Assembly: GCA_028284545.1 (NCBI GenBank)
Contig: JANQRN010000100.1
Span: forward strand, 1-40,668
DNA: 40,668 nt
Reading direction: 5' to 3'
From: Rhodothermales bacterium
Lineage (GTDB): Bacteria > Bacteroidota > Rhodothermia > Rhodothermales > JABDKH01
Positions 6,818-37,987 of the stretch are shown one piece after another. Numbering within the stretch: position 1 is the stretch's first letter; every line of letters starts with the position of its first letter. The position numbers were made by a program, and so were the translations under genes. The notes below the pieces were generated by a model. That model made no database searches and was not told the DNA's origin. It worked only from the letters and a program-made list of their open reading frames with translations.

Positions 6818-6865
6818 CCTGAAAGATGCCTCAATCGGGCTATCTTCAGCAAATCGGGCGTTTCC

Positions 6866-6873
6866 TACGTTTT
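6866..6873 (+). promoter_or_regulatory. Possible Bacteroidota -7 element before the sigma factor gene
   Basis: TACGTTTT matches the Bacteroidota -7 consensus TAnnTTTG at seven of eight bases and ends 8 nt before the proposed ATG. I see no good -33 TTG at the usual distance. If used, transcription would begin almost at the start codon. This is weak evidence. Confidence 0.22.
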
Positions 6874-6881
6874 CTTGCTGT

Positions 6882-7469
6882 ATGAGAGTTCAGTCCAATA
6901 CGAACGCATCCGCGGCCCAGGCGCTGTCGATAGACCGACTACTCGAGCGCGTGCGCGACGGGGATGGCTCGGCGCTGGACGAGCTCCTGCCGGTGTTATA
7001 CGGAGAGCTTCGTAGGCTGGCACATCGCGTGCGCGCTCGGAATCCGGCCTCACCAACCCTCAACACCACGGCACTCGTGCACGAGGCCTACGAACGAATT
7101 GCTGATCACGGTAGGGGCTGGAACGATCGGGCGCACTTTTTTCGCGTCGCGGCCCAGGCAATGCGGCACGCGCTAGTCGACTATTCGCGACGGTCGCGCG
7201 CCCAAAAACGCGGAGGGGATTCAGTCCCGGAGTCGCTCTCGTCATTTGAGCTCGTGGCAGAAGAAAAGACCGCAGAGGTCATTGCCCTCGACGAGGCGCT
7301 GGGTCGGTTGGCGACCGTGGATCAGCGACAAGGCGAGATCGTCGAATTACGGTACTTTGTCGGCCTGACGATTGAAGAAGCGGCTGACGTGCTGTCGCTT
7401 TCGCCGACGACCGTGAAGCGCGAATGGACCGCGGCGCGTGCGTGGCTGTATCGTGAGATCACGCGGTAG
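6882..7469 (+). CDS. ECF-type RNA polymerase sigma factor (TIGR02999-like)
   Basis: This is a 195-residue sigma-70 family protein. Region 2 holds [14 protein letters not shown] and [19 protein letters not shown], signatures of the ECF subgroup that sits beside Ser/Thr kinases in Bacteroidota, Planctomycetes and Acidobacteria. Region 4 holds [30 protein letters not shown], a helix-turn-helix for -35 recognition. I chose the ATG at 6882 because a longer frame from 6717 would run into the divergent lipoprotein gene and adds non-family sequence. The kinase gene follows after 9 nt, so the two are probably one operon, and the kinase may control sigma activity by phosphorylation in place of an anti-sigma factor. 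That link is known for similar pairs but is inferred here. Confidence 0.93.
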
Positions 7470-7478
7470 AGACTGCTC

Positions 7479-19820: not shown

Positions 19821-20381
19821 ATGATCGCCCGCCTCGCCGACATACCCCGCGAACTGTATTCGACCGAAACGGGCGCTCCGTTCAGCGAGTGCCTCGTATG
19901 CGGTCGCCCGCTCGGCGAGTCGGCCGAGTATATGGTCGAGAAAGCAGTACGCAAGTATTCGGACTACGACCTGCAAGACACCGTCTTCGAATATGCTGTC
20001 TGCATCGCCTGCTACCAGACCCTCTCGGCCAGCTTCTCGATGGAGTCGCGTCAGGCCGTCGACGGATTCTTCGCTGAGCGAGTCGACCAGCAGGAGCGGC
20101 TCGAACGCCTGTCAGACGTGCCCACGAATGACCTCGCGCCGTGGATTGGGTCTTGTTTACTGACTGGTACACCGGCTGACAGTCTCGAGGAGTACCAGAT
20201 TGTTGCTCACTGTTTCGGTGAGCACCTTGTTGTCGGCCCCGCTCCGTTTCTCATCGGCGGACCTGCAATCGACGAGATTACCGGACTGTTGTCAAATGAG
20301 ACCCTGGACGAACTCGGCGGATTCCGAGACCAGTACTTCGGTCTTCCTCCGGAGCTGCAGCCACAGGTCGTCTTCTTATGA
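19821..20381 (+). CDS. Double-CxxC putative zinc-binding protein coupled to chrA
   Basis: This 186-residue protein has no recognised family. Two CxxC pairs, Cys24/Cys27 (ECLVCG) and Cys61/Cys64 (CIACY), could bind one zinc as a treble-clef or ribbon. The middle is acidic and helical, and a HCFGEH segment may add metal ligands near residue 145. There is no signal peptide, so it should be cytoplasmic. The last codon and stop overlap the ATG of the ChrA-type transporter (ATGA), so the two are translationally coupled and probably work together, perhaps as a sensor or accessory. That role is inference only. Confidence 0.8.
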   Translation: MIARLADIPRELYSTETGAPFSECLVCGRPLGESAEYMVEKAVRKYSDYDLQDTVFEYAVCIACYQTLSASFSMESRQAVDGFFAERVDQQERLERLSDVPTNDLAPWIGSCLLTGTPADSLEEYQIVAHCFGEHLVVGPAPFLIGGPAIDEITGLLSNETLDELGGFRDQYFGLPPELQPQVVFL

Positions 20382-21583
20382 TGGAAAGCACCGAGGCACG
20401 GTCAGGGTCAGTCGGTGAAGTAGCTCGTTTGTTCTTTCGGCTCGGCTGCGTCGCTTTCGGCGGCCCAGCCGCGCACATCGCGATGATGGAGGACGAATTT
20501 GTTACGCGGCGGAAGTGGATGACGCGCGAACATTTTCTGGACCTCATCGGAGCCACGAACCTCATCCCCGGTCCGAATTCCACCGAGATGACCATGCACG
20601 TGGGGTTCGAGCGGGCGGGTTGGCGCGGTCTCTTTGCGGCCGGTGCCTCATTTATCCTGCCGGCCGCGACGATCACCGGCATTCTGGGATGGCTGTACGT
20701 CAAGTACGGCACGCTGCCGGACGTCGAGCCGTTTCTGGTTGGAATAAAGCCAGCCGTACTTGCTGTTATCGCCGGGGCACTCTGGAAGCTGACAAAGAAA
20801 GCTGTCAAGGGTTGGCGGACCGCAGCGGTCGGCCTCGGCGCGCTCATCGCGATTGCCCTCGGTGTTTCGGAGATCTCCGCGATGATTCTTGGCGGGATCG
20901 TCGGAATGCTCTTCATTCGGCTGTCGGAACCGCGTTTTGACGGTGGCGATTCGGCTTCATCGGCTAAACGGGGCGAACCGGAATCACCATTGCGCAAGGG
21001 CTTCCTCTTTCCAATCGTGGCGGGAGGCGTGGCTACGGGTGTTGCCGTAGGGACGGTTTCATTGTGGAAGCTCGGACTCTTCTTCCTAAAAGTTGGCGCC
21101 ATCCTGTACGGAAGCGGTTATGTCCTTTTCGCTTTCCTCGAGGGAGACCTTGTCAACACGTACGGTTGGCTGACAAACGAGCAACTCGTTGACGCGATAG
21201 CGATTGGTCAGTTCACCCCCGGCCCCGTGCTGTCGACGGCTACCTTCATCGGATACGTACTGGCCGGATGGCAGGGTGCTGTTGTCGCGACTGTCGCCAT
21301 TTTTCTGCCGTCCTTTTTCTTCGTCCTGGTACTCAACCCGATCATCCCGAAACTTCGACGATCTGTGTGGATGGGCGCCTTTCTTGACGCAGTTAACGTC
21401 GCAGCCGTCGCGCTCATGGTATGGGTGTCCTATCGTCTCGGTGTCGCTACGCTGACTGACTGGACGGCGTGGCTGATCCTGGTCCTTGCGGCCATCGCGC
21501 TATTCCGCTTCAAGCTCAACGCAGCCTGGATCGTTTTGGGAGGCGCCCTGGTGGGAGTCGTGCTAACGCTCCTCTCGGTTTGA
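20378..21583 (+). CDS. chrA: ChrA-type chromate efflux transporter (two-domain CHR family)
   Basis: This 401-residue membrane protein is the usual size of long-chain CHR transporters with two homologous halves. The first half has LFFRLGCVAFGGPAAHIAMMEDEFV and LIGATNLIPGPNSTEM; the second has the matching FFLKVGAILYGSGYVLFAFL and IGQFTPGPVLSTATFIGYVLAGWQGA. About ten to twelve hydrophobic helices are visible, with a polar linker near 185-205. The family exports chromate using proton-motive force, though many members are untested. Two adjacent ATGs (20378, 20381) are possible starts; the first overlaps the upstream stop. It ends 9 bp from the convergent DUF1501 gene, with no visible terminator. 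Confidence 0.92.
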   Translation: MMESTEARSGSVGEVARLFFRLGCVAFGGPAAHIAMMEDEFVTRRKWMTREHFLDLIGATNLIPGPNSTEMTMHVGFERAGWRGLFAAGASFILPAATITGILGWLYVKYGTLPDVEPFLVGIKPAVLAVIAGALWKLTKKAVKGWRTAAVGLGALIAIALGVSEISAMILGGIVGMLFIRLSEPRFDGGDSASSAKRGEPESPLRKGFLFPIVAGGVATGVAVGTVSLWKLGLFFLKVGAILYGSGYVLFAFLEGDLVNTYGWLTNEQLVDAIAIGQFTPGPVLSTATFIGYVLAGWQGAVVATVAIFLPSFFFVLVLNPIIPKLRRSVWMGAFLDAVNVAAVALMVWVSYRLGVATLTDWTAWLILVLAAIALFRFKLNAAWIVLGGALVGVVLTLLSV

Positions 21584-21592
21584 CGAGCCCGG

Positions 21593-23215
21593 TTATCGCA
21601 GGTGCATCATCGAGACCGTACGCGTTCGGTCACCTGCAGACAATCTGCAGAAGTACGGCCCGCTAGGTAGTCTATCGGGTACCCATGCCACCTCGTGTTC
21701 GCCCGCGTGCCGCTGCTCGTCGACGAGCGTGGCGACGAGCCTACCACGCACGTCAAATACCTCGAGGCGTACGTAAGCCTGGTCGTCCAGTGCGTACTTG
21801 ATGCGAGTTCTCCCGGCGAACGGGTTCGGGTAGTTCTGCTCGAGCCCGAACTGGGGCCCATCGGCCGCCTCGTTTACTGCGGTGCTTGTGGACAGGAAGC
21901 CAAGCGAGTCAAACGAACCCGTTAGCGCAGCATCGGTGGTAACGTCGTCCGCACCAAACCAGTCGCGCAGGATCGTTGCGTACGCGTGCCGAAAGTCGAT
22001 GTCGTAGATGAGGTTGTCTTCCGCGTCACGCTGCGAAAGATCAGGGGCAGGCCCGTAGAGGCCGCCGTTCACATTCTTGCCGATGACAAAGAGCGGTGCC
22101 GACGTGCCGTGGTCGGTGCCGTCGGAGCCATTCTGGTTTATTCGCCGACCGAATTCAGAGAACGTCGCGATGATCACGCGGTCTCTAACGCTCTCCGGGA
22201 GATCAGCCATGAACGACGTGACTGCGCTGGAAAGAGCTGAAAGCAGTGCCGCATGATCGTCGGCTTGGTTTGCGTGGGTGTCAAATCCATTCAGCGAGAC
22301 CATATAAATCCGCGTTTCGAGGTCGCCCTTGATCAGCTTTGCTGCGATCGAGAGGCTCTCAGCCAGGTGGTGATCGTCGTAGTTGACATCGTTTGTGCCG
22401 GCATTGGCAGCCGCACGGATTGCCTCGCCATACCGGAACGCCGAGTTCACCACGTTGCGCAGAAACCACATTTCGTCGCCGTAAGCTGTAGACGGCAGGC
22501 TGTCCAGCGTATAGAATCGGCCGGTCTCCGCGAACTCGTTGAAGCGATCGAGGTCCCGGATTGCCATGCCCATATTGACCTCTGGGCCCTGAAATACAAG
22601 GCTTGGACCTCCAATTTGCACCGCGAGCGGATCGACGGGCGGGTTCGTGACTACGTCAGGGTGCACGGTACTGAGGTACCGACCGGCCCAACCCGTGGTA
22701 AGTGACTCGTCGGAGTCACTTGAGGTGGTCCATATGTCGGTCGAACGGAAATGCGACAGGTCGGGCGCATCATAACCGACGTTTTGCAAGACGGCCATCT
22801 CGCCATCGTCGAAGATGTCTCTGAACCCGGCCAGAGACGGGTGCCAGCCCAGTTCGCCGGTAAGCGGCAGCGTCTGATTTGCCGGTATGGCAAGCGACGG
22901 CCTGGCACTGTAGTAGAGGTCGTTCGTCACGGGCACGATGGTGTTGAGTCCATCGTTGCCTCCCTCTAGTTGTATCAGTACCAGAATCCGATCCGTGTTG
23001 GCCGCAGCCACTGCGTCTAGCCATGGGGTTCGAGCAAAAGCCTGCACCGGCCGGCCCGCCAACATCATCGAACCGCCTACGGAAGCGGCGCCCATTGTAC
23101 TGAGGAAGTGGCGGCGCGACCACATGGAATGGTCGGCCTCGTGCGCCTCGCCGTGCGCAAGTGCACTGCCCGGCCGAGTCTTCGCCGTCAGTTTCAATTT
23201 GTGTTCGTCACACAT
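21593..23215 (-). CDS. DUF1501 protein with Tat signal and T9SS type-A sorting domain
   Basis: The ATG at 23215 is chosen because GAGGA lies just before it and it starts 7 nt after the DUF1800 stop; a longer frame from 23266 overlaps DUF1800 by 44 nt. The 540-residue product has a twin-arginine motif (SRRHFL, 33-38) followed by a hydrophobic AASVGGSMML stretch. It then has the DUF1501 body (LIQLEGGNDGLNTIVP, FSEFGRRINQNGSDGTDHGTSAPLFVIG). From about residue 456 there is a T9SS type-A tail (FGLEQNYPNPFAGRTR ... ending SMMHLR). DUF1501 proteins belong to the alkaline phosphatase/sulfatase-like fold. It probably crosses the inner membrane folded by Tat and the outer membrane by T9SS. No substrate is known. 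Confidence 0.94.
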   Translation of the reverse strand: MCDEHKLKLTAKTRPGSALAHGEAHEADHSMWSRRHFLSTMGAASVGGSMMLAGRPVQAFARTPWLDAVAAANTDRILVLIQLEGGNDGLNTIVPVTNDLYYSARPSLAIPANQTLPLTGELGWHPSLAGFRDIFDDGEMAVLQNVGYDAPDLSHFRSTDIWTTSSDSDESLTTGWAGRYLSTVHPDVVTNPPVDPLAVQIGGPSLVFQGPEVNMGMAIRDLDRFNEFAETGRFYTLDSLPSTAYGDEMWFLRNVVNSAFRYGEAIRAAANAGTNDVNYDDHHLAESLSIAAKLIKGDLETRIYMVSLNGFDTHANQADDHAALLSALSSAVTSFMADLPESVRDRVIIATFSEFGRRINQNGSDGTDHGTSAPLFVIGKNVNGGLYGPAPDLSQRDAEDNLIYDIDFRHAYATILRDWFGADDVTTDAALTGSFDSLGFLSTSTAVNEAADGPQFGLEQNYPNPFAGRTRIKYALDDQAYVRLEVFDVRGRLVATLVDEQRHAGEHEVAWVPDRLPSGPYFCRLSAGDRTRTVSMMHLR

Positions 23216-23235
23216 GGCTTCCTCACGTGGCGTTG
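23205..23235 (-). promoter_or_regulatory. Shine-Dalgarno deciding the DUF1501 start
   Basis: On the minus strand TGAGGAAGCC directly precedes the ATG at 23215. The GAGGA core is well spaced (about 5 nt) and much stronger than for most genes in this window, supporting the shorter start. Confidence 0.6.
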
Positions 23236-24875
23236 TACTCTGGCAAACGCGTGATGTACATGACAAAGTTGCGTAGCAGGTACCCCAGTTGTTCGTTGTA
23301 GGGGCTCCACTCGTACCATGGCACCCAATCCAGAAGCAGCTTGGCGAGGTTAGTCATGTAGGCGGGACCATTCACGACGAAATCCGGAATCGGGTTGTTC
23401 GTCAGGTCCCCTGCGAAGTCTCGAGAGACCGTCTCTATGTCCAACTCCGAGATCGGTACCCCAACGAGGTGTTCGACAAGAGCCGGGCCCACCCGAAACG
23501 CGAGGTGCGGATCCGTGGTGTCGACGAGGCTTTCCAACAGACCGACGAAATCAAGCGGAGCAGTGGTTTCGTCTGACCAGATCAGCCACCCCAGGGCGTT
23601 CCACCGTTCGGCAATCGACTGCGTCGACACCCAGTTGCGATGGCGAGGCCAGCCGTTTACGCTCGGAATGTTCATCAGGACCTGTTCCAGCCCCCATGAC
23701 GTCCAGAAGATCATCCAGAGATGCGTCGAGTTGTATCCGCCGATCTCCTTGAGGAATCGGAGCGAGAGCTCAACGGGGCTGGCGATCTTGGCACCGTGTA
23801 CCACCGCGTCAAAAAAGTGCTCGCTCTTCAGCAGCGCCCGGACCACGGGCTCGATGTTCCAGTTGGTGGCCAGCAGCAGTGACGCCATGGCATCGACGAC
23901 GTCGGGAGCGGGAGCCTCGTACACGAACTCCTGATACAACTTGGAACATATGTACCAGGCAGTCTCAGCGGCCCTCTCCTGAAAGACAATGTCGACAACG
24001 TCGTCGTAACCATAGTTGCCCGTCTGTCCGAAGAAGGACTTCTGACCGTTGTCAAATCGATTCGAGTTGTGCCAACTGGTGAAGTTGCTCCAGTTGATCT
24101 GCCAACCGGTCAGGCAGCGCGCGATGTTCTGGATGTCATCCTCGGAGTAGTTGGGCTGATTGTTCTTGTCGACAATGCCGCAAGTGAACAACTCCAGCAG
24201 CTCGCGCGCGTAGTTTTCGTTTGGTGCGGACTCCTCGTTGTCGACTCCGTTCAAGTAGATCAGCATTGCTGGAGCAAGTCCAACCGCGTGCGTGAAGTCC
24301 TTGAAGTTGCCGAGAGCGTGCTCTCTAAGCAACGCCAGATACCGGTAGCCAAACTGCGTGTGGTAGTAGGTCTCCTGATTCGTAACAAAATGATCTAGCC
24401 AGAACAGCGTCAGCTTCTCGCGCAGGCCCCGGTCGATCATCAACTGCATCCAGTCCACACGCAGTTGATCAAGCCACTCGAATACCAGGTCGTTATATGC
24501 CTGCCACTCGGCGTCTGTCGCGTTGGGTCCGGGTGGCGGATGATTGATCCACGAAGGAGGCGTTGGGGCTTGCCACCCGGCTGCCGCGTTCACGATCTCG
24601 TCAACAACCTCTGACGCGCTGCGACCGACAATGGCGTCTACGCCGACCTTGTCGGCGCCAAACGCCGTGCGACGTAGAAGATGACGTGCCGACGCCACGT
24701 CCAGTGTGCCCGTGTACGGGTCCAGTCCGGCATTCGTCGCTAGCGGCGCGAGCTGAGCGTTCAGGTCTGGCTTACCGGGGTCGCTCGCCGTTGATCGTTG
24801 CCTGGTGGCTCGCTCCTTCCTGAGGTGTTCTGGTACAACACCCGGTTGTGCGGAGGCGGACGAGGGAGGGTACAC
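23223..24875 (-). CDS. DUF1800 domain protein
   Basis: This 550-residue protein of the DUF1800 family includes ASARHLLRRTAFGADKVGVDAIVG, the LTLFWLDHFVTNQ segment, NENYARELLELFTCGI and the ARCLTGWQI/KSFFGQTGNYGYDDVVDIVF blocks typical of the family. It is nearly always found next to DUF1501, as here (7-nt gap), and the pair is thought to act together outside the cytoplasm. The start is a GTG at 24875; no ATG/GTG/TTG is in frame closely upstream, although the frame stays open. No signal peptide is visible from this start, so export may depend on the Tat-bearing DUF1501 partner. That idea is inference. Confidence 0.92.
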   Translation of the reverse strand: MYPPSSASAQPGVVPEHLRKERATRQRSTASDPGKPDLNAQLAPLATNAGLDPYTGTLDVASARHLLRRTAFGADKVGVDAIVGRSASEVVDEIVNAAAGWQAPTPPSWINHPPPGPNATDAEWQAYNDLVFEWLDQLRVDWMQLMIDRGLREKLTLFWLDHFVTNQETYYHTQFGYRYLALLREHALGNFKDFTHAVGLAPAMLIYLNGVDNEESAPNENYARELLELFTCGIVDKNNQPNYSEDDIQNIARCLTGWQINWSNFTSWHNSNRFDNGQKSFFGQTGNYGYDDVVDIVFQERAAETAWYICSKLYQEFVYEAPAPDVVDAMASLLLATNWNIEPVVRALLKSEHFFDAVVHGAKIASPVELSLRFLKEIGGYNSTHLWMIFWTSWGLEQVLMNIPSVNGWPRHRNWVSTQSIAERWNALGWLIWSDETTAPLDFVGLLESLVDTTDPHLAFRVGPALVEHLVGVPISELDIETVSRDFAGDLTNNPIPDFVVNGPAYMTNLAKLLLDWVPWYEWSPYNEQLGYLLRNFVMYITRLPEYNAT

Positions 24876-24925
24876 GGGGATTGGCGTTGGGTTGGCCTGA
24901 GTATCGGCGAAATCAACTCCGGGCC

Positions 24926-25504
24926 TTAAGGCGCAAAGAGACCCAGTTGCTTGCCCGGCGCGGCTTCAGATTCGAAGAGTACGAGTCGGAACCGTTTGTC
25001 GTATCGTCCACCGCTGTGCCGTCTGCAACAAGCAGCGCATGCCGCTGGTCTTCTCGGGCGTCGATGAAACTCGGCCCGATCGTGACACACGGGACAGACC
25101 GCGACAAATCGTGCCGGCAGGCGGACAGATTCGTCTTCGTAGAGTCGCGCGGGATCGGCCCCACAGCGCACCGCCCATCGCCTCCATGTTTCGCTGTGGT
25201 CGGTCGTCATCCGCTCATCGACGTCCAGGGCATGCGCGATTTCGTGCCGCATGACGTCTTCCATGAGCGACCAGCCGTAAGCTTCCGTAAACGGTTTTGA
25301 AATGCTGATCACCTTAGACGTGATACGCCTCCCGGGGGAGTAGCTGCAGCAGCCAAGCCGCGTACGCGCGCGGTCAAATTTGAAGCGCCAACCGGTTGCC
25401 TGCAGCGTCTGCCCGCGAAGTCGCAAGCCAAGATCCGCCATCAACCCGCGCGCGTTGTCGGCAACTTCCTCTACGTCGTGAGTCCCGGCAGCAGTAGTCG
25501 TCAA
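24926..25504 (-). CDS. SprT-like zinc metalloprotein
   Basis: This 192-residue SprT-family protein has the zinc site HEIAH (His87, Glu88, His91), and a likely third ligand His103 (TDHSETW). A C-terminal zinc ribbon has Cys137/Cys140 (CPVC) and Cys156/Cys159 (CAACC). The fold resembles Spartan/SprT proteases that cut DNA-protein crosslinks; bacterial SprT-like proteins are mostly untested. The start is a TTG overlapping the upstream stop (TTGA) with GAGGG before it, so it is coupled to the VCBS lipoprotein gene. An ATG at residue 22 is an alternative. It is a cytoplasmic protein in a run of exported proteins, which is odd. Confidence 0.88.
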   Translation of the reverse strand: MTTTAAGTHDVEEVADNARGLMADLGLRLRGQTLQATGWRFKFDRARTRLGCCSYSPGRRITSKVISISKPFTEAYGWSLMEDVMRHEIAHALDVDERMTTDHSETWRRWAVRCGADPARLYEDESVRLPARFVAVCPVCHDRAEFHRRPRRPAACAACCRRHSGGRYDKRFRLVLFESEAAPGKQLGLFAP

Positions 25505-27393
25505 TTACCCTCGAAATAGAACAGCCCGCCTCCAGTAGCGCCCGCAACCACGTCAAGGTCGCCATCTGCATCCAGGTCCGTCAGACTGACAGTCGAGAAT
25601 TCGGGTGTCTCGAATGACAGCATGCCGTCTGCTTCAAAATTCGGGAAGTCGCTCGACCCATTGTTGCGCAACAGCAACGGAGCGCCTTTGTCGCGACTGA
25701 CAATCATGTCCTGATCGCCATCTCCATCAAGATCGGCAAACTCAATGAAGCTCCGCCGCCCAGCGTCGACGTCAGCGTACTTGTCGGATACAAAGGAGAA
25801 GTCCGCTTTTTCAGGCGTACCGATGTTCGCGTAGAAATTGATGTCGCCTGAAGACTCGCCTGCAAATAGGTCGAGGTCGCCGTCTGCGTCAATGTCCACG
25901 AGCCGCGGTGTCGCGTTGCTGCCCCGTGTCAGCTTTAGGAACTCGTCGTTCTCAAGGACAAACTCGGGTGCTGATGGCGTTCCGTTGTTTCTGACCAGCA
26001 TCATTCCCTTCGTCCAGGTCCCGATGATCATGTCCAGATCTCCGTCCCGGTCGAGGTCACCAAACGTTGGCGCCGCGTGATAAGACTCGCCAAAGTAAAG
26101 CGTATCGACCAACTGGAATGAGGGTTGTACCGGTGTGCCCTGGTTCTCGAAGTAGTACATGAGGGAGCGCCTGCCGTCTACGGGATCAATCTTATTGGTA
26201 ACGTACAGGTCCAGGTCACCATCTCCGTCTGTGTCGGCGAGCGAGGGAATGCTCTCCGTACCAAGGTCGATGCCGTAGAGAAACCTCTCGGTGACAACCT
26301 CGAAGTCTCGACCTTCGGCATGACGAAGGAGAAACAGGTTGTCGGCCCCAGTGGTGCTCGGATTGAACGCACCGCCGAGCACACCGACAATCATGTCGGG
26401 GTCACCATCGTTGTCAAGGTCACCCACGGCCGGTGCGTTGTAGCCGCTCGTGCGGATCGGGGCGTTTCGCGGAAACCGCACCGGTTCGTTTTGCAGCGCC
26501 GGCGCATTGCATGACCCGGAATTCTCGATGAGGAGGAGCCCTGACTCAAAAAAGTCGCCCCAGAACAGGTCCTCATCGCCATCGCCGTCGTAATCAGCGA
26601 ATGCCATGGTGTTGGCCCCGTGCAGGCTTGCGCCGACCTGAATCTCGCCAATGATTTCGATGTCCTCGAAGCGCGTCGTTACCAACGCGAACTGTGGCAT
26701 CCCCTGATTATCTGTACCGCCGGCCTCGTAGCGGTATATCGTGCCGTCAACTCGACCAACGAAGAGATCAAGCTTGCCATCGCAGTCGATGTCGGTGACG
26801 TTCGGGATGTTCTGCCTGTCAGAGAAGAGCTCTTCGCCGTCTGTGTCCTTAAGTGCGTAGAGCGTAGCGTCAAACTGGGCAGCCTGCGCGCTTCCGGTGT
26901 TTTCGAAATACCGAATGTGGCTGAAACGTTTCTCCGCCAAAATGTCGTAGTCGCCGTCCTGATCCAGATCCACGATGCGATACCACTCACCGATGTCGAG
27001 ATCCATGTACGCATCGGTAACAAACGTGTACCTGGACTCAGCGGCAGTGCCGGTGTTCTCGAAGTACATGAGCAGGCCAGTGTACTCCTGCAGGAAGAGG
27101 TCGAGATCCCCGTCTGCGTCGATGTCGACGAGTTGCGTGCGGGGCACGTTGATACCGCCGAGGAACGGAAACTCATACGGCGTGCCTTCCCCGTCCCGCA
27201 CCTCGAAGGGTACGACTTTCCTTTCCCAGACCGATGGCGCCGTTGGCGCGCTCGGCGCGGGTGTCAGCAACTTCCGTCCGCTGCGCTGCTGATCATCGCC
27301 GGTAGAGACAACCTCACCCGAGCCGGCGCCGCAGCCTGTGAGAATGATGACGCAGGCCGCGGCAACAGCCGCGGTCTTCGAAAAAATTGACAT
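25501..27393 (-). CDS. VCBS/FG-GAP repeat lipoprotein (ten Asp-rich repeats)
   Basis: This 630-residue lipoprotein has lipobox ILTGC (Cys21). It carries about ten DxDxDGDxD-type motifs at regular spacing, from VDIDADGDLDLFLQ near residue 90 to TDLDADGDLDVVAG near the C-terminus. These are calcium-binding VCBS/FG-GAP blades that fold into beta-propellers. No enzyme domain is seen. It probably sits on the cell surface as a binding or adhesion protein. It starts 23 nt after the propeller lipoprotein gene, and its stop overlaps the SprT-like TTG start. Confidence 0.93.
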   Translation of the reverse strand: MSIFSKTAAVAAACVIILTGCGAGSGEVVSTGDDQQRSGRKLLTPAPSAPTAPSVWERKVVPFEVRDGEGTPYEFPFLGGINVPRTQLVDIDADGDLDLFLQEYTGLLMYFENTGTAAESRYTFVTDAYMDLDIGEWYRIVDLDQDGDYDILAEKRFSHIRYFENTGSAQAAQFDATLYALKDTDGEELFSDRQNIPNVTDIDCDGKLDLFVGRVDGTIYRYEAGGTDNQGMPQFALVTTRFEDIEIIGEIQVGASLHGANTMAFADYDGDGDEDLFWGDFFESGLLLIENSGSCNAPALQNEPVRFPRNAPIRTSGYNAPAVGDLDNDGDPDMIVGVLGGAFNPSTTGADNLFLLRHAEGRDFEVVTERFLYGIDLGTESIPSLADTDGDGDLDLYVTNKIDPVDGRRSLMYYFENQGTPVQPSFQLVDTLYFGESYHAAPTFGDLDRDGDLDMIIGTWTKGMMLVRNNGTPSAPEFVLENDEFLKLTRGSNATPRLVDIDADGDLDLFAGESSGDINFYANIGTPEKADFSFVSDKYADVDAGRRSFIEFADLDGDGDQDMIVSRDKGAPLLLRNNGSSDFPNFEADGMLSFETPEFSTVSLTDLDADGDLDVVAGATGGGLFYFEGN

Positions 27394-27416
27394 CGGAGAT
27401 TAGAAATTCGTCTGTG

Positions 27417-28487
27417 TCAGCGCGGACGCGTGCCGATACCGGAAGGGTTTGTCCCAACCTCGATCGTCTTCAGGATCTGATGGGTCGACGGGTCAATCAC
27501 GACTACATTGCCCGTTCCGTCTTTGGCATCGCCCGAACTCGGCGTAAACGCGCCATCACCGTTCTGATTGGAGATGAAAATGTACTTCCCATCCGCGGAG
27601 ATGGCCGACCCATGCGGCTGGGCGACGCTCGGACCTTCGATCAGGTGGGCGACCGACCTGTCGTCGGCATTAAGCACCGTTATCGTATTGGCCATCTTGT
27701 TGCCGAAGAAGATGAACTGTCCGTCTGCCGAATAGACCGGGTGCCATGGTCCGCGATTGACCTCTAGCTCACCTTTGAGCTTTGGGGCGTCGGCATCGGC
27801 GATATCGAAGAATGCCATCTTGGCATCCATGTGGCCGCCCGCAACCATCTCTCTGCCGTCGGGTGATATCGCAAACTGGACAAATGACCTGTTCATTCCG
27901 CCAAGGTCCGTCAAATTCGTCTGCTCAGAGTCGACATCGATCGCCATGATCTTGTTCTCGGCGAGACTGGCCGTGTAGACCGTCTTGCCGTCGGGGGAGA
28001 GCATGAGCGCGTGAGGCCGGGGGAAGAAGACGTCCAACTCCTCAACTTCCATCGCACCACGTTGGATGACGCCGACGCGAGACGGTGGATTGACGGCAGT
28101 CATGGACCTTCCCACAAACAGCTCGTCGCCCTCGGGGTCGAGGACGAGCATTCCCGGCACCTCGAATTCTACGGAGCCAACGATCTCGTTTGCGCGGTTC
28201 ATTTTCAGAACGCGCGACTCCCCGATGAGTGACAGGTACCAGAACTCGCCAGACGGCTCGACTGCGATATGGTGCGGTTTTGCAGTGCTAGAAAAACCGA
28301 GTTGTTGCAGGTCGACCGTGTCGACGACTTCGAGTGTCGCAATGTCTATTACAGATACGGTCGCGCCACCCTGGTTGGCAACGTACAGGTAGTCTGGCGA
28401 GTCAGACATTCCGGCATTGCGCGAACCGGAGCATCCGGCCAGGAAAACGAAAACGGCTAGCAACGCCAGGCGGGAGAACACTTTCAT
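27417..28487 (-). CDS. YncE-like beta-propeller lipoprotein
   Basis: The ATG at 28487 is chosen because GAAGG precedes it and the upstream sequence is a transcription terminator; a longer frame to 28559 crosses that hairpin. The 356-residue product has lipobox FLAGC (Cys17). It repeats motifs such as LYVANQGGATVSVIDIATLEVVDTV, FISPDG-like strands and YIFISNQNGDGAF, typical of YncE/cytochrome d1-type seven-bladed propellers. It ends with VVVIDPSTHQILKTIEVGTNPSGIG. The ligand is unknown. It is the first gene of the run down to DUF1501. Confidence 0.9.
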   Translation of the reverse strand: MKVFSRLALLAVFVFLAGCSGSRNAGMSDSPDYLYVANQGGATVSVIDIATLEVVDTVDLQQLGFSSTAKPHHIAVEPSGEFWYLSLIGESRVLKMNRANEIVGSVEFEVPGMLVLDPEGDELFVGRSMTAVNPPSRVGVIQRGAMEVEELDVFFPRPHALMLSPDGKTVYTASLAENKIMAIDVDSEQTNLTDLGGMNRSFVQFAISPDGREMVAGGHMDAKMAFFDIADADAPKLKGELEVNRGPWHPVYSADGQFIFFGNKMANTITVLNADDRSVAHLIEGPSVAQPHGSAISADGKYIFISNQNGDGAFTPSSGDAKDGTGNVVVIDPSTHQILKTIEVGTNPSGIGTRPR

Positions 28488-28523
28488 AACCTTCTTGATC
28501 GGGTATTGGGACAGAGAAGGAAC

Positions 28524-28559
28524 AAAAAAATGGGGAGAGAGGCTGCCCCCTCTCCCCAT
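28524..28559 (-). terminator. Strong intrinsic terminator after the FG-GAP/choice-of-anchor-B gene
   Basis: On the minus strand, 12 nt past the stop at 28571, ATGGGGAGAG (28559-28550) pairs with CTCTCCCCAT (28539-28530) around a 10-nt loop. Seven T residues follow (28530-28524). The 10-bp GC-rich stem plus T run is a textbook Rho-independent terminator for the 30982-28571 gene. Confidence 0.92.
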
Positions 28560-28570
28560 ACGGTCGGAGT

Positions 28571-30982
28571 CTAGATGTCGACTTGACGCTTCTTGACGAC
28601 GAAGAGGCCTTCGCTGCCACTCGTCACGAGCACACTGCCGCTCTTGAAGAACGGATAGTTACTCCACGAACCTCCGAAGCCCGGCGTGTCTGTGCCGTAG
28701 GGAACGGTGTCAAAGAAGCCTACCGGAACCGGATTGGCTGCATCCGAGATGTCGAAAATACGCAGTCCGCTCTGGTAGTTCGACTGGTACATGAAGTCGC
28801 CCTTTATGTACAGGTTGTGATCAGAGGATTTGTTTGTCGACACGTACTCGCGCACAAGCTGCGGGTCGTCGAGATCAGAAACATCCCAGATCATCGTGCG
28901 CGTCCCGTCGGTCTTGCCGCTGAGCTCGTCAAGTTCATCGTTCAGGTAGAAGAACCGATGATCCTCCGTGATCCAGCCCTGGTGTGCGTAGCCAACGTTC
29001 GGGTAGGAAGCGGTGGACAACGCTACGGTCGCGGCCTTGTCGGTCACGTCAGCAATTGACAGAGCGGTCTCGTTCGAACCAAAGCAGATCTCTTTGCCCT
29101 GGTGCTGTGCGTCGGGCCCGTTGTAGGTGATGCACATGGCATCATGCGAATACCCGGTGCCCGAGCGCCCGGTAGACGGGTCCGCAAAGCAACCCACAAA
29201 CTCTGGATTCGCCGGATCCTGGATGTTGATGATGTGTAGACCGCCCCCGCAGGTCTCGCCGCCGGAGCTGTTGCCAACCGTGTAGGCGTATCCAGTGTCT
29301 TCGTTGATTACGATGTTGTGGGAGCTTGCGATCTTGTCGTAGTGAGTTGTGGCCGTGAACTCCACAGGCTCATCTCCCACCTCCCTCAGCAGCGTCAGGT
29401 CAAGCACCTGCATGCCATGATTCTGCGCGCCGTCTGCAACGATATAGACGTGGTTCTTGTACGTCTTCATATCGCGCCACGTACTCGGGGGCGTGCCCTC
29501 CGTTCGCGTGAGGTTGCCTTTGTATACCGGGTTGTTGGGGTCGGTTACGTCTACGAACGATGTGCCGTCAAGGCGACCTACGATCGCGTACTCGCGGTCA
29601 GTCTCCGGGTCGGTCCAACCCCAGACGTCGTTGACCCGCACTCCGCGACCACCGCCGAGTTCATGTACCGGCATGAACGACAGCAGGTCAACTTGCTCGC
29701 AGCCGAACTCGCTGGCCATGCCGTCGGTGCAGTCAACCCTGTCTCCAAAGACGGCCATTAGGTTGTCGACCTTGCCCATGATTGCAGAGGCCGGTGACCA
29801 TGCGCCATCCATTCGCTCGTAAACGCGACCAGAACCGGATCCAAAATCATCTCCAGCAACTCCGGCGACAAATACGTCGCCCGCCGCTGCAAGGGCTGAC
29901 GAGAACCCGTCACGCGAGTCAAGATCTTCAGGCGCAATCATCGCAGGGGCCATGTCGCTTCCGAACGTGTAGACCATGACTGCACCAGCCCGTTCGTTGG
30001 AGCCAGGGGAGCCAACGATCAAGTCGTTGCCCGCAACGGCCAGCGACTGCCCGAAGAAGTCACGTCCGCCCTCCTCGCTTTCAGCCGGGGCGTGCGTGTG
30101 GTCCAGCGTCCATCCTGAATCGCCGGCCATATATATTGCGACAGCACCTGCGCCTTCGTTCGCGCGCGGTGCGCCTACGATGAGGTGCGGTCCGTGGGTG
30201 GCCAATGAGGAGCCGAAGAAACCGCCTTCACCGACGTCTGCCCCCTCGAGTTTTGCCGACTGGCTCCAGCTCTCTGCTGCGCCGTCCCAGGAGAAGACAT
30301 AGACCGTGCCGTCGCCGGCGTTATGCCGAGGTGCCCCGACGATAACGTTCTTGCCGTCGGTGTGTACAACGGTACCCATTCTGTCGCCCTCTTCGGCATC
30401 CGCCGCAGAGAGGACGCCGGCTGACGACCAAACTCCGGTCCGGTCATCGCGCATGAAAACGTATGCGACGCCGGTGCGATCATTTGCGCCCGGGGCACCG
30501 ACGACCGCCATGTTTCCGCTAACCGACACGGCTGCTCCAAACATCTCGCCCTCGGCCGACATGTCGGAACTCAGCCTGGCTGTCTGCATCCATCCACCGT
30601 TGTCGCCGCGCGAAAACGCAAAAACGACGCCGGCGTTTTCATCGCCCGCGGCACCGACCAGAACGGTGGATCCATCAGCGGCAACGCTCTGGCCAAATCG
30701 ATTACCGATTTCGCCACCCTCTGCCATGATTTCGGCTGACTGGTACCAGCTTCCGTGCTTGACACCACGGCTGAATACGTGGACCACGCCCGGCTTGGTA
30801 TTGTTGGCGGGTTCGCCAACGAACACATTGCTTTCGCCAACCGCGACGGCGCGTCCAAATCCGGCGCGCTCAGCAGCCGCGGATCCCGCCATGGACTGCG
30901 CCCAGACAGGGGCAGCGACGAGGCTGCCCGCAAAAAGCAGCGCCAGTACGAATGGATTGTGTAGTCTCGAACTCCTGATCAT
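28571..30982 (-). CDS. FG-GAP seven-repeat propeller fused to choice-of-anchor-B (LVIVD) domain
   Basis: This 803-residue exported protein has a signal peptide ending near PVWAQ. Residues about 35-400 hold seven FG-GAP repeats of the form FGxxVAVxGxxxxVGAPGANxxxG (for example FGAAVSVSGNMAVVGAPGA and FGQSLAVAGNDLIVGSPGS), enough for a seven-bladed propeller. The C-terminal part, about 430-803, matches the choice-of-anchor-B family with LVIVD-type strands (MQVLDLTLLREVG, GLHIINIQDPANPEFVGCF, GLRIFDISDAANPVPVGFF). These are surface or secreted proteins. No T9SS tail is seen. It is transcribed alone from the divergent region and ended by a strong terminator. Confidence 0.92.
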   Translation of the reverse strand: MIRSSRLHNPFVLALLFAGSLVAAPVWAQSMAGSAAAERAGFGRAVAVGESNVFVGEPANNTKPGVVHVFSRGVKHGSWYQSAEIMAEGGEIGNRFGQSVAADGSTVLVGAAGDENAGVVFAFSRGDNGGWMQTARLSSDMSAEGEMFGAAVSVSGNMAVVGAPGANDRTGVAYVFMRDDRTGVWSSAGVLSAADAEEGDRMGTVVHTDGKNVIVGAPRHNAGDGTVYVFSWDGAAESWSQSAKLEGADVGEGGFFGSSLATHGPHLIVGAPRANEGAGAVAIYMAGDSGWTLDHTHAPAESEEGGRDFFGQSLAVAGNDLIVGSPGSNERAGAVMVYTFGSDMAPAMIAPEDLDSRDGFSSALAAAGDVFVAGVAGDDFGSGSGRVYERMDGAWSPASAIMGKVDNLMAVFGDRVDCTDGMASEFGCEQVDLLSFMPVHELGGGRGVRVNDVWGWTDPETDREYAIVGRLDGTSFVDVTDPNNPVYKGNLTRTEGTPPSTWRDMKTYKNHVYIVADGAQNHGMQVLDLTLLREVGDEPVEFTATTHYDKIASSHNIVINEDTGYAYTVGNSSGGETCGGGLHIINIQDPANPEFVGCFADPSTGRSGTGYSHDAMCITYNGPDAQHQGKEICFGSNETALSIADVTDKAATVALSTASYPNVGYAHQGWITEDHRFFYLNDELDELSGKTDGTRTMIWDVSDLDDPQLVREYVSTNKSSDHNLYIKGDFMYQSNYQSGLRIFDISDAANPVPVGFFDTVPYGTDTPGFGGSWSNYPFFKSGSVLVTSGSEGLFVVKKRQVDI

Positions 30983-33553: not shown

Positions 33554-34605
33554 GCGCACCGGCGTGCTCAACATATCCAGGTAACGGCGCGGTTGCTCCC
33601 AACGGGCTTCGGATGCTCGTGTTGTCGCTTGCTCTTGCCGTGGCTGCTGTCCTGCTTGGCGGCTGTGATGACACGGTAAACGCCATCCTGGAGAGCAACC
33701 GCAATATCTCGATGTACGCGACGCTCGACATGAACGCTGACACGCAGTTCGTGCGAATCGTACCCATCCGTGAGACTATCGACGAAGTAGTCGATGGTTC
33801 AGACTACGCGGTACGTTCGATTGACCTGGACAACAACTCGATCGTCGAGTGGCAGGATTCGCTAGTTACATTCAGTGACGGATCGCAGGGCCTGGTCTTC
33901 TTCGCTCCGCTGCGTCTCTTCCCACAGCACACGTATCGGATCGAGGCGAGCGGGGGCGGATCAAATCTCGTAACGTCTGCCGAGACACGGATACCTCCGA
34001 TTCCATCGGTGACGATCGGGGAAGACTCGGCCGAGAAGTTCGTCACCCCGAATGGGTTCTTCGTTGTTTCGAAACAGGCCGTCGAGTGGACCGGTCTCGA
34101 GAGGGAACCGCTGTCGATCGAACAGTGGTACAGGTTCCGGCGCACGCCGAGGTCAGCGTTCACCGACATCAACTTTCCCTTTCCTCCAGACCCCGAGCTG
34201 CAAGGAGATCGGATCGCATTCGAGCTCGACCTTGCGGCGGACAAGATTTCGCTTGAGGATTCCGTAGACACGAGGCGCACGGCGTTCATCGGGATCGGGA
34301 TGCGCATCACGATTCTGAACGCCGAGTTTGTTCCACCCGGTGGGGTCTTCGATTCCGAGTTACTCGTCCAGCCCGGCACGTTCTCCAACGTCGAGAATGG
34401 CTTCGGATTCATCGGCGCCGTTGGTCGCTTCTCGGTCGAGTGGGTGATCAGTGAGCCAACCGTGCGAACGCTTGGTTACCTCCCCGTGAGCGACGCGTTT
34501 GGCAAGCGGCCATCAGAGCCAGCTGGCTACGGGATCACGAAGCTTTGCTCTACCGTGAAGGGCGAAGTTGTGCCTGACGGGTCGATCGCCTGTACTGCCC
34601 AGTAG
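33550..34605 (+). CDS. Lipoprotein partner of the TonB receptor (DUF4249-like position)
   Basis: The 351-residue frame starts at GTG 33550, overlapping the receptor stop. An ATG at 33613 gives a shorter form whose signal lacks a basic residue. A hydrophobic segment leads to a lipobox (LLGGC, Cys39). The mature part looks beta-rich (PHTYRIEASGGGSN, TPNGFFVVSKQAVEWTGLE) but I recognise no named domain. By position it resembles the DUF4249 lipoproteins that accompany TonB receptors. Its 3' end overlaps the convergent VCBS-FnIII gene by 79 bp, so the last ~25 residues share DNA with that gene. Confidence 0.85.
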   Translation: MSAPACSTYPGNGAVAPNGLRMLVLSLALAVAAVLLGGCDDTVNAILESNRNISMYATLDMNADTQFVRIVPIRETIDEVVDGSDYAVRSIDLDNNSIVEWQDSLVTFSDGSQGLVFFAPLRLFPQHTYRIEASGGGSNLVTSAETRIPPIPSVTIGEDSAEKFVTPNGFFVVSKQAVEWTGLEREPLSIEQWYRFRRTPRSAFTDINFPFPPDPELQGDRIAFELDLAADKISLEDSVDTRRTAFIGIGMRITILNAEFVPPGGVFDSELLVQPGTFSNVENGFGFIGAVGRFSVEWVISEPTVRTLGYLPVSDAFGKRPSEPAGYGITKLCSTVKGEVVPDGSIACTAQ

Positions 34606-36122
34606 TAGGTACCCGACGCCAAGCCGCTTAGTGTCCACGTCAGCTGATGGTCGACATTGCCGCGTGCGGTTTGTAGCCTCTTCGAAGTCACCGGATTGGA
34701 CATCGCCGGGACTACCTCGTTACCGCCTGGCGTTGTTCCCACGCGCACGTTATACGTGAGACCGGCTGCAGGTGTCTGGCCGTCAGACGCGGCGCCCCAC
34801 GAAAGCACAACAGTCGCAGGGCCAGGTGTTGCAATGGGTAGCGACGGGGCGTTCGGCGGCGTGTTGGAGTGTGCAAGCTCGTTGCGGTACTCACGCGAGA
34901 AAAGCCCTGCGTTCGTGATGTTGCCGAAAATGAAGACGTCGACGTCACCGTCCATGTCGTAGTCCCCAAGCGCAGCGTCCCCGAACAGACCGCCTCCAAA
35001 GCGCTCATCTCGCGTGAACGACCCGCTGTCATTGCGGTACGTGAAGCCAGCGACCTCACCGCTGATGCGACCCGCTCCGGAGGAGAAAGCATCCAGGTCG
35101 CCATCGTTGTCGTAGTCGATCCACGCGGCGGTCCCGTGTAGCATCCCGTCGAACACGGTGGCTTCAGTGTACGCCCCGGCGTCGTTGCGATACACGCGCG
35201 ACAGGCCACCAACAACAAATGGGTGAAGCTGGCCGCCGGCAACGAGGATATCCAGGTCGCCGTCAGCATCGTAGTCGCCCCAGTCCGCGGCGGCAAACAG
35301 CACACCGCGGATACCGGCGTTTGCGGGCGTGAAGGTGCCACCGCTGTTCCGGTAGATGCGCACGATATTCTGCTGGTCGTTGCCGACTCCAGAGACCAAC
35401 AGGTCGCGATCGCCGTCCTGGTCATAATCGCCCCAAACCACACGGCCGAAGGCCGCACCCTCCAACAATCCGGCGGGCGTCGTCAGCGTCCCGTTCCCAT
35501 CGTTAACGGCCAGCCAGAGTCGCGCCTCACCATTTTCGTCCAGGCCCGATATCGCCAGGTCGAGGTCGCCGTCGTTGTCTGCATCACCCCACGCGACGCT
35601 CGAAGAACGCAGTCCCTCGAAAGACTGGGTGCGAGTCAGTGATACCGTGTTGTTGCCAGCATTCAGGTAGATATCAGTTCTAAGGTCCCCGGTACTCGTA
35701 ATTCCGGAAACTGCCAGATCCAGAAACCCGTCACCATTTGCGTCGCCCATAGCGTTCCCGCCGTCCCACAACATCGAATCCGGACTGGCGAAGAGCGGTA
35801 TGTACGTTGTGACATACGTGATCGATGGCGGACCGTCTGGGACCCTGGGGGGGCCAAGGAAGAAGGTGTCGCCGTCATTGCGATAGAACTGTTGGACAGG
35901 CGCAGGCTCAGCGCGCGTATTGCGATTGCCCTGTATTACCAGGTCCATGTCACCGTCACGATCAAGATCACCCCATTCGAAATGCCCGAACGTGACCGGG
36001 ACGACTTCGCCCTCCATGAAACAGAAGTTCGGTCGGGCCTGATCCTCGCAGACGAGCGGGTCGACCTGGGCGCGCGCGGGGATCGCGACTATCAGTAACA
36101 ATACCAGAAATGTGTACCGCAC
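34527..36122 (-). CDS. Secreted VCBS/FG-GAP - FnIII protein lacking a T9SS tail
   Basis: The GTG at 36122 gives a clean 531-residue secreted protein (signal LVLLLIVAIPARAQ). An AGGT Shine-Dalgarno precedes it and the upstream stop is 2 nt away; a longer frame to 36221 is rejected. Seven Asp-rich repeats (GDLDRDGDMDLVIQG through GDYDMDGDVDVFIFG) form a propeller, followed by a fibronectin III-like domain (TYNVRVGTTPGGNEV ... YYWAVQAIDPSG). It ends FTVEQSFVIP with no sorting signal. It is a tandem paralogue of the next gene and is coupled to it. The final 79 bp overlap the convergent lipoprotein gene. Confidence 0.9.
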   Translation of the reverse strand: MRYTFLVLLLIVAIPARAQVDPLVCEDQARPNFCFMEGEVVPVTFGHFEWGDLDRDGDMDLVIQGNRNTRAEPAPVQQFYRNDGDTFFLGPPRVPDGPPSITYVTTYIPLFASPDSMLWDGGNAMGDANGDGFLDLAVSGITSTGDLRTDIYLNAGNNTVSLTRTQSFEGLRSSSVAWGDADNDGDLDLAISGLDENGEARLWLAVNDGNGTLTTPAGLLEGAAFGRVVWGDYDQDGDRDLLVSGVGNDQQNIVRIYRNSGGTFTPANAGIRGVLFAAADWGDYDADGDLDILVAGGQLHPFVVGGLSRVYRNDAGAYTEATVFDGMLHGTAAWIDYDNDGDLDAFSSGAGRISGEVAGFTYRNDSGSFTRDERFGGGLFGDAALGDYDMDGDVDVFIFGNITNAGLFSREYRNELAHSNTPPNAPSLPIATPGPATVVLSWGAASDGQTPAAGLTYNVRVGTTPGGNEVVPAMSNPVTSKRLQTARGNVDHQLTWTLSGLASGTYYWAVQAIDPSGTTSPFTVEQSFVIP

Positions 36123-36124
36123 GG

Positions 36125-37987
36125 CTACCTGACAATAACGAGTTTGGTCACGGCCGACTCCGCGCCAGCCGTCAGCTTGACGAAATAGAGGCCTGCAGCT
36201 ACTTGCGGTTCCCAGCGCCATTCCCCCGTGCCTGAGCGCGCAGGAAGCAGGGCCCGGCTGACGACGGCACCACGTGCGTCAAAAACAGCGATAGCGGGAG
36301 CAGTATCGGGGTTGATCTCGTCCAGGGAGTATGGAATGACAACGGCGCCGGCGGCCGGATTGGGATAAGGTTCATCCAGGGCAAACGCTTGCCCGTCCGC
36401 GTTCTCTTCGGTGTCTGTCGATGTGTCTTTACCAGTCACGTTGACGGAGCCCTCAGCTGCGAACTCAGAGGCTGCGAAACCAGCATCTATCGCCTGAACA
36501 CTCCAGAAATACGAACCGTTCGGCAGGTTGAGCAGCAGGCGCGTCGACTCGCCCGTATTGCCGCGATCTGAGACGAGCCTGCGATGCCCTCCAGCTACAG
36601 TCGTTGACGGCAAGACATCATCGCCTCCCGATGTTGTGCCAACGCGAACGTTGTAGGTCAGTGACCCCTGGCCCGACTGCTCGTCAGTCGCGGCATCCCA
36701 GGTCAGCGTCAGCACCCCCGATGCAAGTGAAGACTGAAGGTTGGAGGGCGCCGAAGGAGCGGTGTTGGGTACGCGATAATCGTTGCGATAGAGACCAAGG
36801 ATCGTGGATCGCTCGCGATCAAGCCCGGTCACGAGCACATCAGGGTCGAGGTCGCCGTCGTAGTCTGAAAAATCGGCACTCGCAAAGGCGAGGCCGGTCA
36901 GGAAGATCCGCTCGACAAAGCCAGAAGCGCCCTCGTTGGCATAGATCCGTACAGCCTTGTCTCCAACGGCGCCTTCGGCTCCCGCAGCCAGGATGTCAGG
37001 GTCACCGTCACTGTCATAGTCACCCCACCGCGCCTCGCCGTAGAAGCTGGGCACCAACTCTTCGTGCAGCGTGAGCGTCCCCGCGTCATTTCGATAGATA
37101 TGCAGGAGTCCGTCGAAGATCAGCGGACTAATTTCGCCGCCCGAGAGGAGAAGATCCGGGTCGCCGTCGCCGTCGAAGTCGCCCCAGTCAGCAGACGAGA
37201 AAGCCGGCTGCGAGAGTTGTGCACCAAGGGGTGAAAACTCATTGTCCGTATTGATGAATACGTCGGTGACAAACGTGCCGTCGGATGTCGCGCCACTCAA
37301 GAGCACGTCTGCGTCGCCATCCAGGTCGAAGTCTGTCCAGGCAATGTCACCGAACGCGAGGTCGGGAAGGCTGGTGTCAAACTCGACAAAAGCACCTCCG
37401 TCATTGCGTAGCAGGAGCGTCTGAAACTGATCACTTGACTGGGCACCAATCAGCAGAAGGTCCAGGTCCCCGTCACCATCGAAGTCTGACCAGGACGCGG
37501 CCGACCCGTAGAGCCCGGGTAACGTGACCGCGGATGGTTCTAGCTGTGATCCGTTGTTGACGAGCAGTACAGTCGTGCCCGCGTAGGGCTCACTCGTGCC
37601 GTTGGCCCCGGTGGTGACGGCATCGAGGTCGCCATCACCGTCGTAATCCGCCCACGCAATGCCGCCATGCCAGAGCCCGATGGGCAGATTCGCTACTTCA
37701 AAGTCAATTCCCCACAGGCCGCTGAAGCTGTCCCTAAGCTCAGCGCGCGTAAATGCCTGGTACGTTGTCGGCAGAAATGGGCTGTTGGCATTCGAATTAC
37801 CAACGGCGAGGATGTCCATGCGGCCATCCCCATCAATGTCTCCGAAGCTCGCGTCGCCGTAGTTCGTGAACGGCGCGGCCGGTTCTACATATGTAAACGC
37901 GAACGGCTGAGCGACGAGTCGTCCAGAGAAACCGCCAACAGCCAGAAGGACGCAAACTACCGCGAGCCTGGGTAGAGATCTGAACAA
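36125..37987 (-). CDS. VCBS/FG-GAP - FnIII protein with T9SS type-A sorting domain
   Basis: This 620-residue secreted protein has signal peptide MFRSLPRLAVVCVLLAVGGF...LVAQ. Seven Asp-rich VCBS/FG-GAP repeats span about 45-400 (GDIDGDGRMDILAVG, SDFDGDGDLDLLLIG, GDYDSDGDPDILAAG). A FnIII-like domain follows (TYNVRVGTTSGGDDV ... YFWSVQAID). The C-terminus is a T9SS type-A sorting domain starting near EPYPNPAAGAV and ending LYFVKLTAGAESAVTKLVIVR. It is probably exported and anchored on the cell surface, binding calcium. The downstream paralogue begins 2 nt after this stop, so the pair is an operon. Confidence 0.93.
   Translation of the reverse strand: MFRSLPRLAVVCVLLAVGGFSGRLVAQPFAFTYVEPAAPFTNYGDASFGDIDGDGRMDILAVGNSNANSPFLPTTYQAFTRAELRDSFSGLWGIDFEVANLPIGLWHGGIAWADYDGDGDLDAVTTGANGTSEPYAGTTVLLVNNGSQLEPSAVTLPGLYGSAASWSDFDGDGDLDLLLIGAQSSDQFQTLLLRNDGGAFVEFDTSLPDLAFGDIAWTDFDLDGDADVLLSGATSDGTFVTDVFINTDNEFSPLGAQLSQPAFSSADWGDFDGDGDPDLLLSGGEISPLIFDGLLHIYRNDAGTLTLHEELVPSFYGEARWGDYDSDGDPDILAAGAEGAVGDKAVRIYANEGASGFVERIFLTGLAFASADFSDYDGDLDPDVLVTGLDRERSTILGLYRNDYRVPNTAPSAPSNLQSSLASGVLTLTWDAATDEQSGQGSLTYNVRVGTTSGGDDVLPSTTVAGGHRRLVSDRGNTGESTRLLLNLPNGSYFWSVQAIDAGFAASEFAAEGSVNVTGKDTSTDTEENADGQAFALDEPYPNPAAGAVVIPYSLDEINPDTAPAIAVFDARGAVVSRALLPARSGTGEWRWEPQVAAGLYFVKLTAGAESAVTKLVIVR

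Follow-up and report, generated by a model that had tools for sequence, protein, structure and literature searches.

A composite five-gene run in a Rhodothermales bacterium and a possible export route for its DUF1800 and DUF1501 proteins

The window examined here is a stretch of 40,668 nucleotides (nt), the entire contig C3 from a 3.85-Mb draft genome, 81% complete. On its minus strand, five co-directional open reading frames (ORFs) run from 28487 to 21593 and encode, in order, a YncE-like beta-propeller, an FG-GAP propeller, a SprT-like protein, a DUF1800 protein and a DUF1501 protein; the window probably belongs in or near the order Rhodothermales. Among the genomes searched, this run is a composite, in which an older propeller module, widespread in the order, meets a SprT-like gene and a separate DUF1800–DUF1501 cassette in one family only. 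The most interesting point, judged from sequence, is the export logic of the DUF pair: DUF1501 would leave the cytoplasm through twin-arginine translocation (Tat) and reach the surface by the type IX secretion system (T9SS), with DUF1800 hitchhiking. Taken jointly, the composite run and this export route form a reading that we regard as slightly on the probable side.

Gene neighbours of the propellers, SprT and the DUF pair

The run is read as a composite because surveys of gene neighbours split it into three pieces. Each part was searched for in the same 99 genomes, namely the window's own and its relatives up to the rank of order. One piece consists of two propellers, the YncE-like protein (27417..28487, minus strand, start ATG) and the FG-GAP protein (25501..27393, minus strand, start ATG). 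The former matches a Lactonase-type propeller (PF10282, 56.7 bits against a cut-off of 21.7) and, also above cut-off, beta_rpt_yvtn; the latter matches FG-GAP_3 (PF13517, 124.4 bits against 26.9) and has many DxDxDGDxD loops (alignment A1). Both carry an N-terminal signal that reads as ending in a lipobox-like motif (LAGC / LTGC). At E <= 1e-20, FG-GAP relatives occur in 87 genomes and YncE relatives in 84. Both are present in 81. In 71 of the 81, FG-GAP has YncE as its immediate upstream neighbour, co-directional and less than 1 kb away; the remaining 10 have the propellers on different contigs (9 genomes) or far apart on one contig (G013). From the 87 genomes with a match, 43 propeller stretches were fetched. 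In 21 of the 43, a choice-of-anchor-B gene is the immediate upstream neighbour of YncE, FG-GAP or both; several of the others ended at contig ends, and 3 had no usable anchor ORF. The conserved unit is choice-of-anchor-B, YncE and FG-GAP, and it is widespread in the order; the run as initially annotated begins inside it. The window's own choice-of-anchor-B gene, which belongs with the propellers and had been passed over in that annotation, lies just upstream of the run (28571..30982, minus strand; FG-GAP_2 repeats and LVIVD; TIGR04312 at 443.5 bits, cut-off 100). In a phylum sample of 148 genomes, FG-GAP relatives at E <= 1e-60 were found in 26, comprising 9 of the order (window's own included), a further 7 of the class and 10 from beyond it. 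The module may form a lipid-anchored assembly on the outer surface.

Another piece is the SprT-like gene (24926..25504, minus strand; PF10263, 36.8 bits against 25.6), whose TTG start overlaps the FG-GAP stop as TTGA. Its product has the HExxH motif in the form HEIAH and a Cys-rich C-terminal part; the zinc ribbon PF17283 falls narrowly under its cut-off (25.4 against 28.1 bits), with the Cys pairs present. No export signal was seen on reading the window's SprT-like protein, which would be a cytoplasmic bystander. Its relatives (E <= 0.001) occur in 28 of the 99 genomes, at 30 loci. Three of these lie within 10 kb of FG-GAP (G000, G001 and G004), all in the window's family, and two within 10 kb of DUF1800 (G000 and G004). 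A sprT gene in Bacillus is the subject of PMC10706128.

The third piece is the pair formed by DUF1800 (23223..24875, minus strand, start GTG; PF08811, 301.5 bits against 26.1) and DUF1501 (21593..23215, minus strand, start ATG; PF07394, 76.5 bits against 27). Relatives of the two occur in 55 and 68 of the 99 genomes, respectively. Of 88 DUF1800 places compared by coordinates, out of 100 listed, 2 had FG-GAP no more than 10 kb away; the other 12 had no contig in common with the FG-GAP, YncE or SprT matches compared. A wider scan took in 79 loci from named genomes, with flanks of up to 10 kb that often ended at contig ends; these are the best 79 of at least 590 relatives and come mostly from Bacteroidota, with other branches under-sampled. 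In these loci, 78 of the 84 DUF1800 genes are followed directly by a co-directional DUF1501, which bears out the initial annotation's remark that such pairs are common. Six DUF1800 genes have no adjacent DUF1501; of the loci concerned, L144 and L188 stop at a contig end or close to one, and in L133 three DUF1800 genes stand in a row. Plasmid records tell the same order (7 of 53 matching records examined), with DUF1501 after DUF1800 in all six annotated regions. DUF1800–DUF1501 is thus a stand-alone and very common two-gene cassette. Choice-of-anchor-B-like matches were present at 2 of the 79 named loci, and relatives of SprT, FG-GAP and YncE at none, so the propeller and SprT partners that the initial annotation had proposed to look for did not appear. 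It had suggested that the five genes could be one system; outside the window's family, no conserved linkage was found for SprT or between propellers and DUF pair, and in the other genomes searched none of these was seen within 10 kb of another.

The recurrent neighbours of the named DUF1800–DUF1501 loci instead resemble housekeeping genes, presumably metG-like and serS-like, as judged from the sequences and not from a family scan. Six Rhodothermales loci of the DUF pair (L054, L096, L097, L099, L101 and L102) have tandem lipoproteins of one cluster nearby, and the four of these that were scanned, from two loci, are WG-repeat proteins. Some of the six loci are near a serS-like gene, and at L097 and L101 two DUF1800–DUF1501 pairs stand in tandem.

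Two relatives serve as natural experiments. G004, of another genus in the same family, keeps the whole order, choice-of-anchor-B included, but has a spacer of 488 nt, which looks repeat-rich to the eye, between FG-GAP and SprT (L035 4783-5270). This spacer also holds an inverted GAATGAAAGAATGAAGG-like motif. In G001, of the window's own genus, FG-GAP and SprT are followed immediately by a convergent chromate-transporter gene, and the DUF1800–DUF1501 pair is missing. Phylogeny adds a further view. In a tree of 24 DUF1800 sequences, the window and G004 pair (95/90) and G005_C56 joins them (100/99); this nearest relative after G004 occupies a different site and has neither propellers nor SprT beside it. 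In a tree of 17 DUF1501 sequences, the window, G004 and G005 group together (97/95), with G004 and G005 paired inside (91/87). The two trees therefore disagree in detail within this group.

Folds, signals and proposed export of the DUF pair

The predicted structure of DUF1501 (pLDDT, the predicted local distance difference test, 81.6) suggests an alkaline-phosphatase-like or nucleotide pyrophosphatase/phosphodiesterase (NPP)-like fold. Of 991 chains compared with the model, 466 aligned at Z >= 8, and the best VIA-align matches are NPP-type phosphodiesterases, with Z 18.6 to 7cba (248 residues, 3.4 A). The fold that the model appears to share with NPPs and alkaline phosphatases (7mw8 and 7cba, Z 18.4-18.6, 248 residues, 3.4 A) is accompanied by an identity of 10-15% in those rows. 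Residues D88, S154-H155, D312, H314, E354 and D368-H369 are invariant in 77 DUF1501 proteins (alignment A6), and the invariant Asp, His and Glu fit a putative metal site; the set is a candidate for the bimetal site and nucleophile of the alkaline phosphatase superfamily. From the modelled fold, a metallohydrolase role is plausible.

Two export features of the window's DUF1501 had gone unremarked in the initial annotation: a twin-arginine-like signal near the N terminus (23036..23122, minus strand; WSRRHFL...) and a T9SS type A sorting domain at the C terminus (21614..21832, minus strand; TIGR04183, 27.7 bits against a cut-off of 23, found at the same place in the whole-genome scan). In alignment A6, R34 is invariant and R35 is kept in at least 90% of the 77 sequences; a regular expression finds the RR motif in 76 of 78 DUF1501 proteins adjacent to DUF1800. 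The Tat call is made because of this motif, the moderately hydrophobic stretch that follows it and its position, and by reading and regular expression the window's N terminus is twin-arginine-like and not of the general secretory (Sec) type. Just before RR, a His-x-x-[WYSN]-x stretch is present in 64 of the 78. A Cys/His-containing extension precedes the twin arginines in the window (23122-23215) and in relatives, and may serve as a checkpoint for metal or maturation. The TIGR04183 tail is found at E <= 0.001 in 56 of the 77 DUF1501 proteins. Among 121 tail-bearing ORFs in the loci examined, RR occurs in 88 of 92 DUF1501 proteins and in 0 of 29 others, a control that is soft, since the 29 include one truncated DUF1501 and several others that are cut or have over-extended starts. 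The window's genome encodes TatC and PorU and has 106 TIGR04183 matches, 105 of them over cut-off.

DUF1800 presents a different picture. Its AlphaFold2 model (pLDDT 91.5) is mostly helical. In the search for a relative of solved structure, no PDB sequence matched at E <= 1, the best Foldseek E was 1.2 and the best VIA-align Z was 3.0 over 149 residues, and no relative was accepted. VIA-align can miss single domains of this 550-residue model, so the lack of a match does not prove a new fold. No recognisable signal peptide was seen on reading the window's DUF1800, and neither it nor that of G004 has an RR motif or a Sec-like signal. Across the DUF1800 proteins of the 78 adjacent pairs, an RR motif was flagged in 5 and a hydrophobic stretch in 4. 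When these nine were read, three had genuine-looking signals (L117, L126 and L133), and the other six were explained by a position inside the domain, an over-extended start or a truncated gene; 75 of the 78 thus have no clear signal. Signals do occur elsewhere in the family. Both DUF1800 proteins of L113 have Sec-like signals, as do three of six annotated plasmid DUF1800 proteins, judged by eye, and one DUF1800 at L133, with no DUF1501 directly beside it, carries a Tat-like signal. Because some members carry signals of their own, the DUF1800 family appears, on this reading of its N termini, to act outside the cytoplasm.

With these features, the cassette probably makes an exported metal enzyme together with a travelling partner. 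DUF1501, as an alkaline-phosphatase-superfamily-like metallohydrolase, would fold in the cytoplasm and leave in folded form through Tat, after which its C-terminal tail would direct it to the T9SS and so to the surface. The signal-less DUF1800 would bind folded DUF1501 and be exported with it as a Tat hitchhiker. Tat hitchhiker export itself is said to have been described by Rodrigue in 1999. The likeness would lie in a signal-less partner encoded beside a protein with a Tat signal, which for DUF1501 is putative; the difference is that the carrier would continue through the T9SS. In its full form, the proposal is of a widespread class of surface metalloenzymes that pass through Tat and then the T9SS and take a mostly signal-less, structurally unmatched DUF1800 along, a folded two-protein complex that would pass both membranes by way of two successive machines for folded proteins. 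This full form is tentative, and we would put it at around one chance in three.

The DUF pair has a precedent in the literature. Passages of PMC5122149 link a DUF1501–DUF1800 tandem to bacterial chitin synthase and note a twin-arginine motif on DUF1501. The pair there, so far as those passages describe it, has the same two families in tandem and the same motif, whereas here DUF1501 has a T9SS tail and the neighbours are propellers and SprT. A chitin synthase link was set aside for the window, as a Pfam scan of 26 of its ORFs finds no such family. Both T9SS reviews consulted (PMC5445135 and PMC9251779) state, in the sections seen, that cargo has a Sec-type N-terminal signal. Compared with type A cargo as described there, the window's DUF1501 is alike in its C-terminal sorting domain, with PorU in the genome, and differs in its twin-arginine-like N terminus. 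Co-export of DUF1800 with DUF1501 is not proposed in the passages of the DUF1800/DUF1501 literature that were examined.

Competing explanations

The five genes could instead form one functional system, in which propellers, SprT-like protease and DUF pair jointly serve polymer degradation or surface attachment. Close gene spacing, one overlap included, the same gene order in another genus (G004) and surface-type signals on three products speak for such a system; it has to contend with the lack of linkage outside the family, the absence of the pair from the site in G001, the repeat-rich spacer of 488 nt inside the run of G004 and a SprT read as having no export signal. It was rejected as the leading explanation on the neighbour surveys and is, in our judgement, quite improbable. 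What survives of the surface degradation or attachment system first suggested is that three of the five products, the two lipobox propellers and the T9SS-tailed DUF1501, carry apparent surface-type signals; the union of all five does not. A stronger contender is that the SprT–DUF1800–DUF1501 block lies beside the propellers by chance and has no functional tie with them or with SprT. Its expectations are matched by the related pairs that G005 and G010 have at other sites and by the spacer in G004, while the co-directional arrangement in both genera and the retention of SprT beside FG-GAP in three genomes are harder to square with it. It overlaps with the composite reading and is compatible with the export mechanism, and it deserves to be taken seriously while falling short of an even chance.

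For the pair itself, DUF1800 might be a cytoplasmic factor dedicated to folding DUF1501 or loading it with metal ahead of Tat export, and DUF1501 alone would leave. This would suit the many DUF1800 proteins without a clear signal, the fixed gene order with DUF1800 first (78 of 84) and the conserved Cys/His extension ahead of DUF1501's twin arginines, a possible recognition site for a maturation factor. The Sec-like or Tat-like signals of some DUF1800 proteins would be needless for a cytoplasmic chaperone, and we consider this arrangement rather unlikely, if by no means negligible.

Care must also be taken with several points that weigh against the composite run with hitchhiker export. The G001 draft is fragmented and 72% complete, and its missing pair may therefore be a fault of assembly. 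Recurrence of the full order in G004 makes some selection for it possible, and co-transcription of the run in the window is likely, because its gaps are operon-like. As to the signals, the NCBI TAT_signal_seq model TIGR01409 matches 1 of 77 DUF1501 proteins, the RR motif is missing at the annotated DUF1501 start in two of six plasmid loci, and the hydrophobicity rules used are crude. Among the 21 DUF1800 proteins listed for the window's order, five start with an RR-x-F/L-type motif and lack a clear hydrophobic stretch (one each at L097 and L101, and those of L102, L105 and L108). These may be weak Tat signals of their own, which would make hitchhiking unnecessary there. At L154 and L159, the DUF1800 genes lack a signal, and no DUF1501 was seen next to them.

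Surroundings of the run and meaning for the pair

The gaps between the five genes are 23, -4, 50 and 7 nt in order (ORF calls and sequence), and here the initial annotation was exact in genes, direction, order and spacing; its family names likewise hold at curated Pfam cut-offs. The strong terminator that it placed ahead of the run was recovered as an intrinsic-terminator-like hairpin between choice-of-anchor-B and the first propeller gene (28530..28559, minus strand; 13 pairs and a T run), with a fold of -25.6 kcal/mol (z -3.6). Its stem is the longest among 10 terminator-like sites in 20000-30000, a number of sites that is not unusual against a shuffle mean of 8.1. The hairpin was rejected as a conserved regulatory element, with a strong hairpin also in G005 and none found in G004. 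No known RNA families (at gathering threshold) and no tRNAs were found in the window.

Some relatives add a further domain to the propeller module. A CxxCH motif is present in the N-terminal extension of 6 of 27 YncE-type ORFs examined (L058, L060, L081, L082, L086 and L087), and all five of the six that were scanned pass the PSCyt1 cut-off. About seven more YncE ORFs share this type of extension but lack the haem motif; three of these were scanned, giving one PSCyt1 match below cut-off and two with none at E <= 0.01. The window's YncE-like protein has no PSCyt1 domain. In relatives that keep this haem domain, the propeller assembly may have a redox link. The literature search found no paper for 'choice-of-anchor B', nor for PSCyt1 with a beta-propeller. 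A second, paralogous and again adjacent YncE/FG-GAP set is present in G002 (C152), G004 (C174, L060), G005 (C61) and G012 (C267), and the same kind of set in G033 (C233), G078 (C13) and G087 (C52). The window itself has two more overlapping FG-GAP genes (34527-37987), one with a T9SS tail. Elsewhere, it holds a large protein with ThuA, GSDH, PKD, cytochrome c and CBM6 domains (3464-6817; CBM6 below cut-off), and a gene for an extracytoplasmic function (ECF) sigma factor followed by one for a Ser/Thr kinase-TPR protein (6717-9767).

For the biology of these genes, the neighbour survey keeps SprT and the propellers out of the functional reading of the DUF pair, and the propeller module, with its occasional haem domain, merits study of its own. 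DUF1800 and DUF1501 are a common yet uncharacterised pair. A route through Tat and the T9SS with a hitchhiker, if true, would give this pair a testable cell biology and would widen the notion of what T9SS cargo can be.

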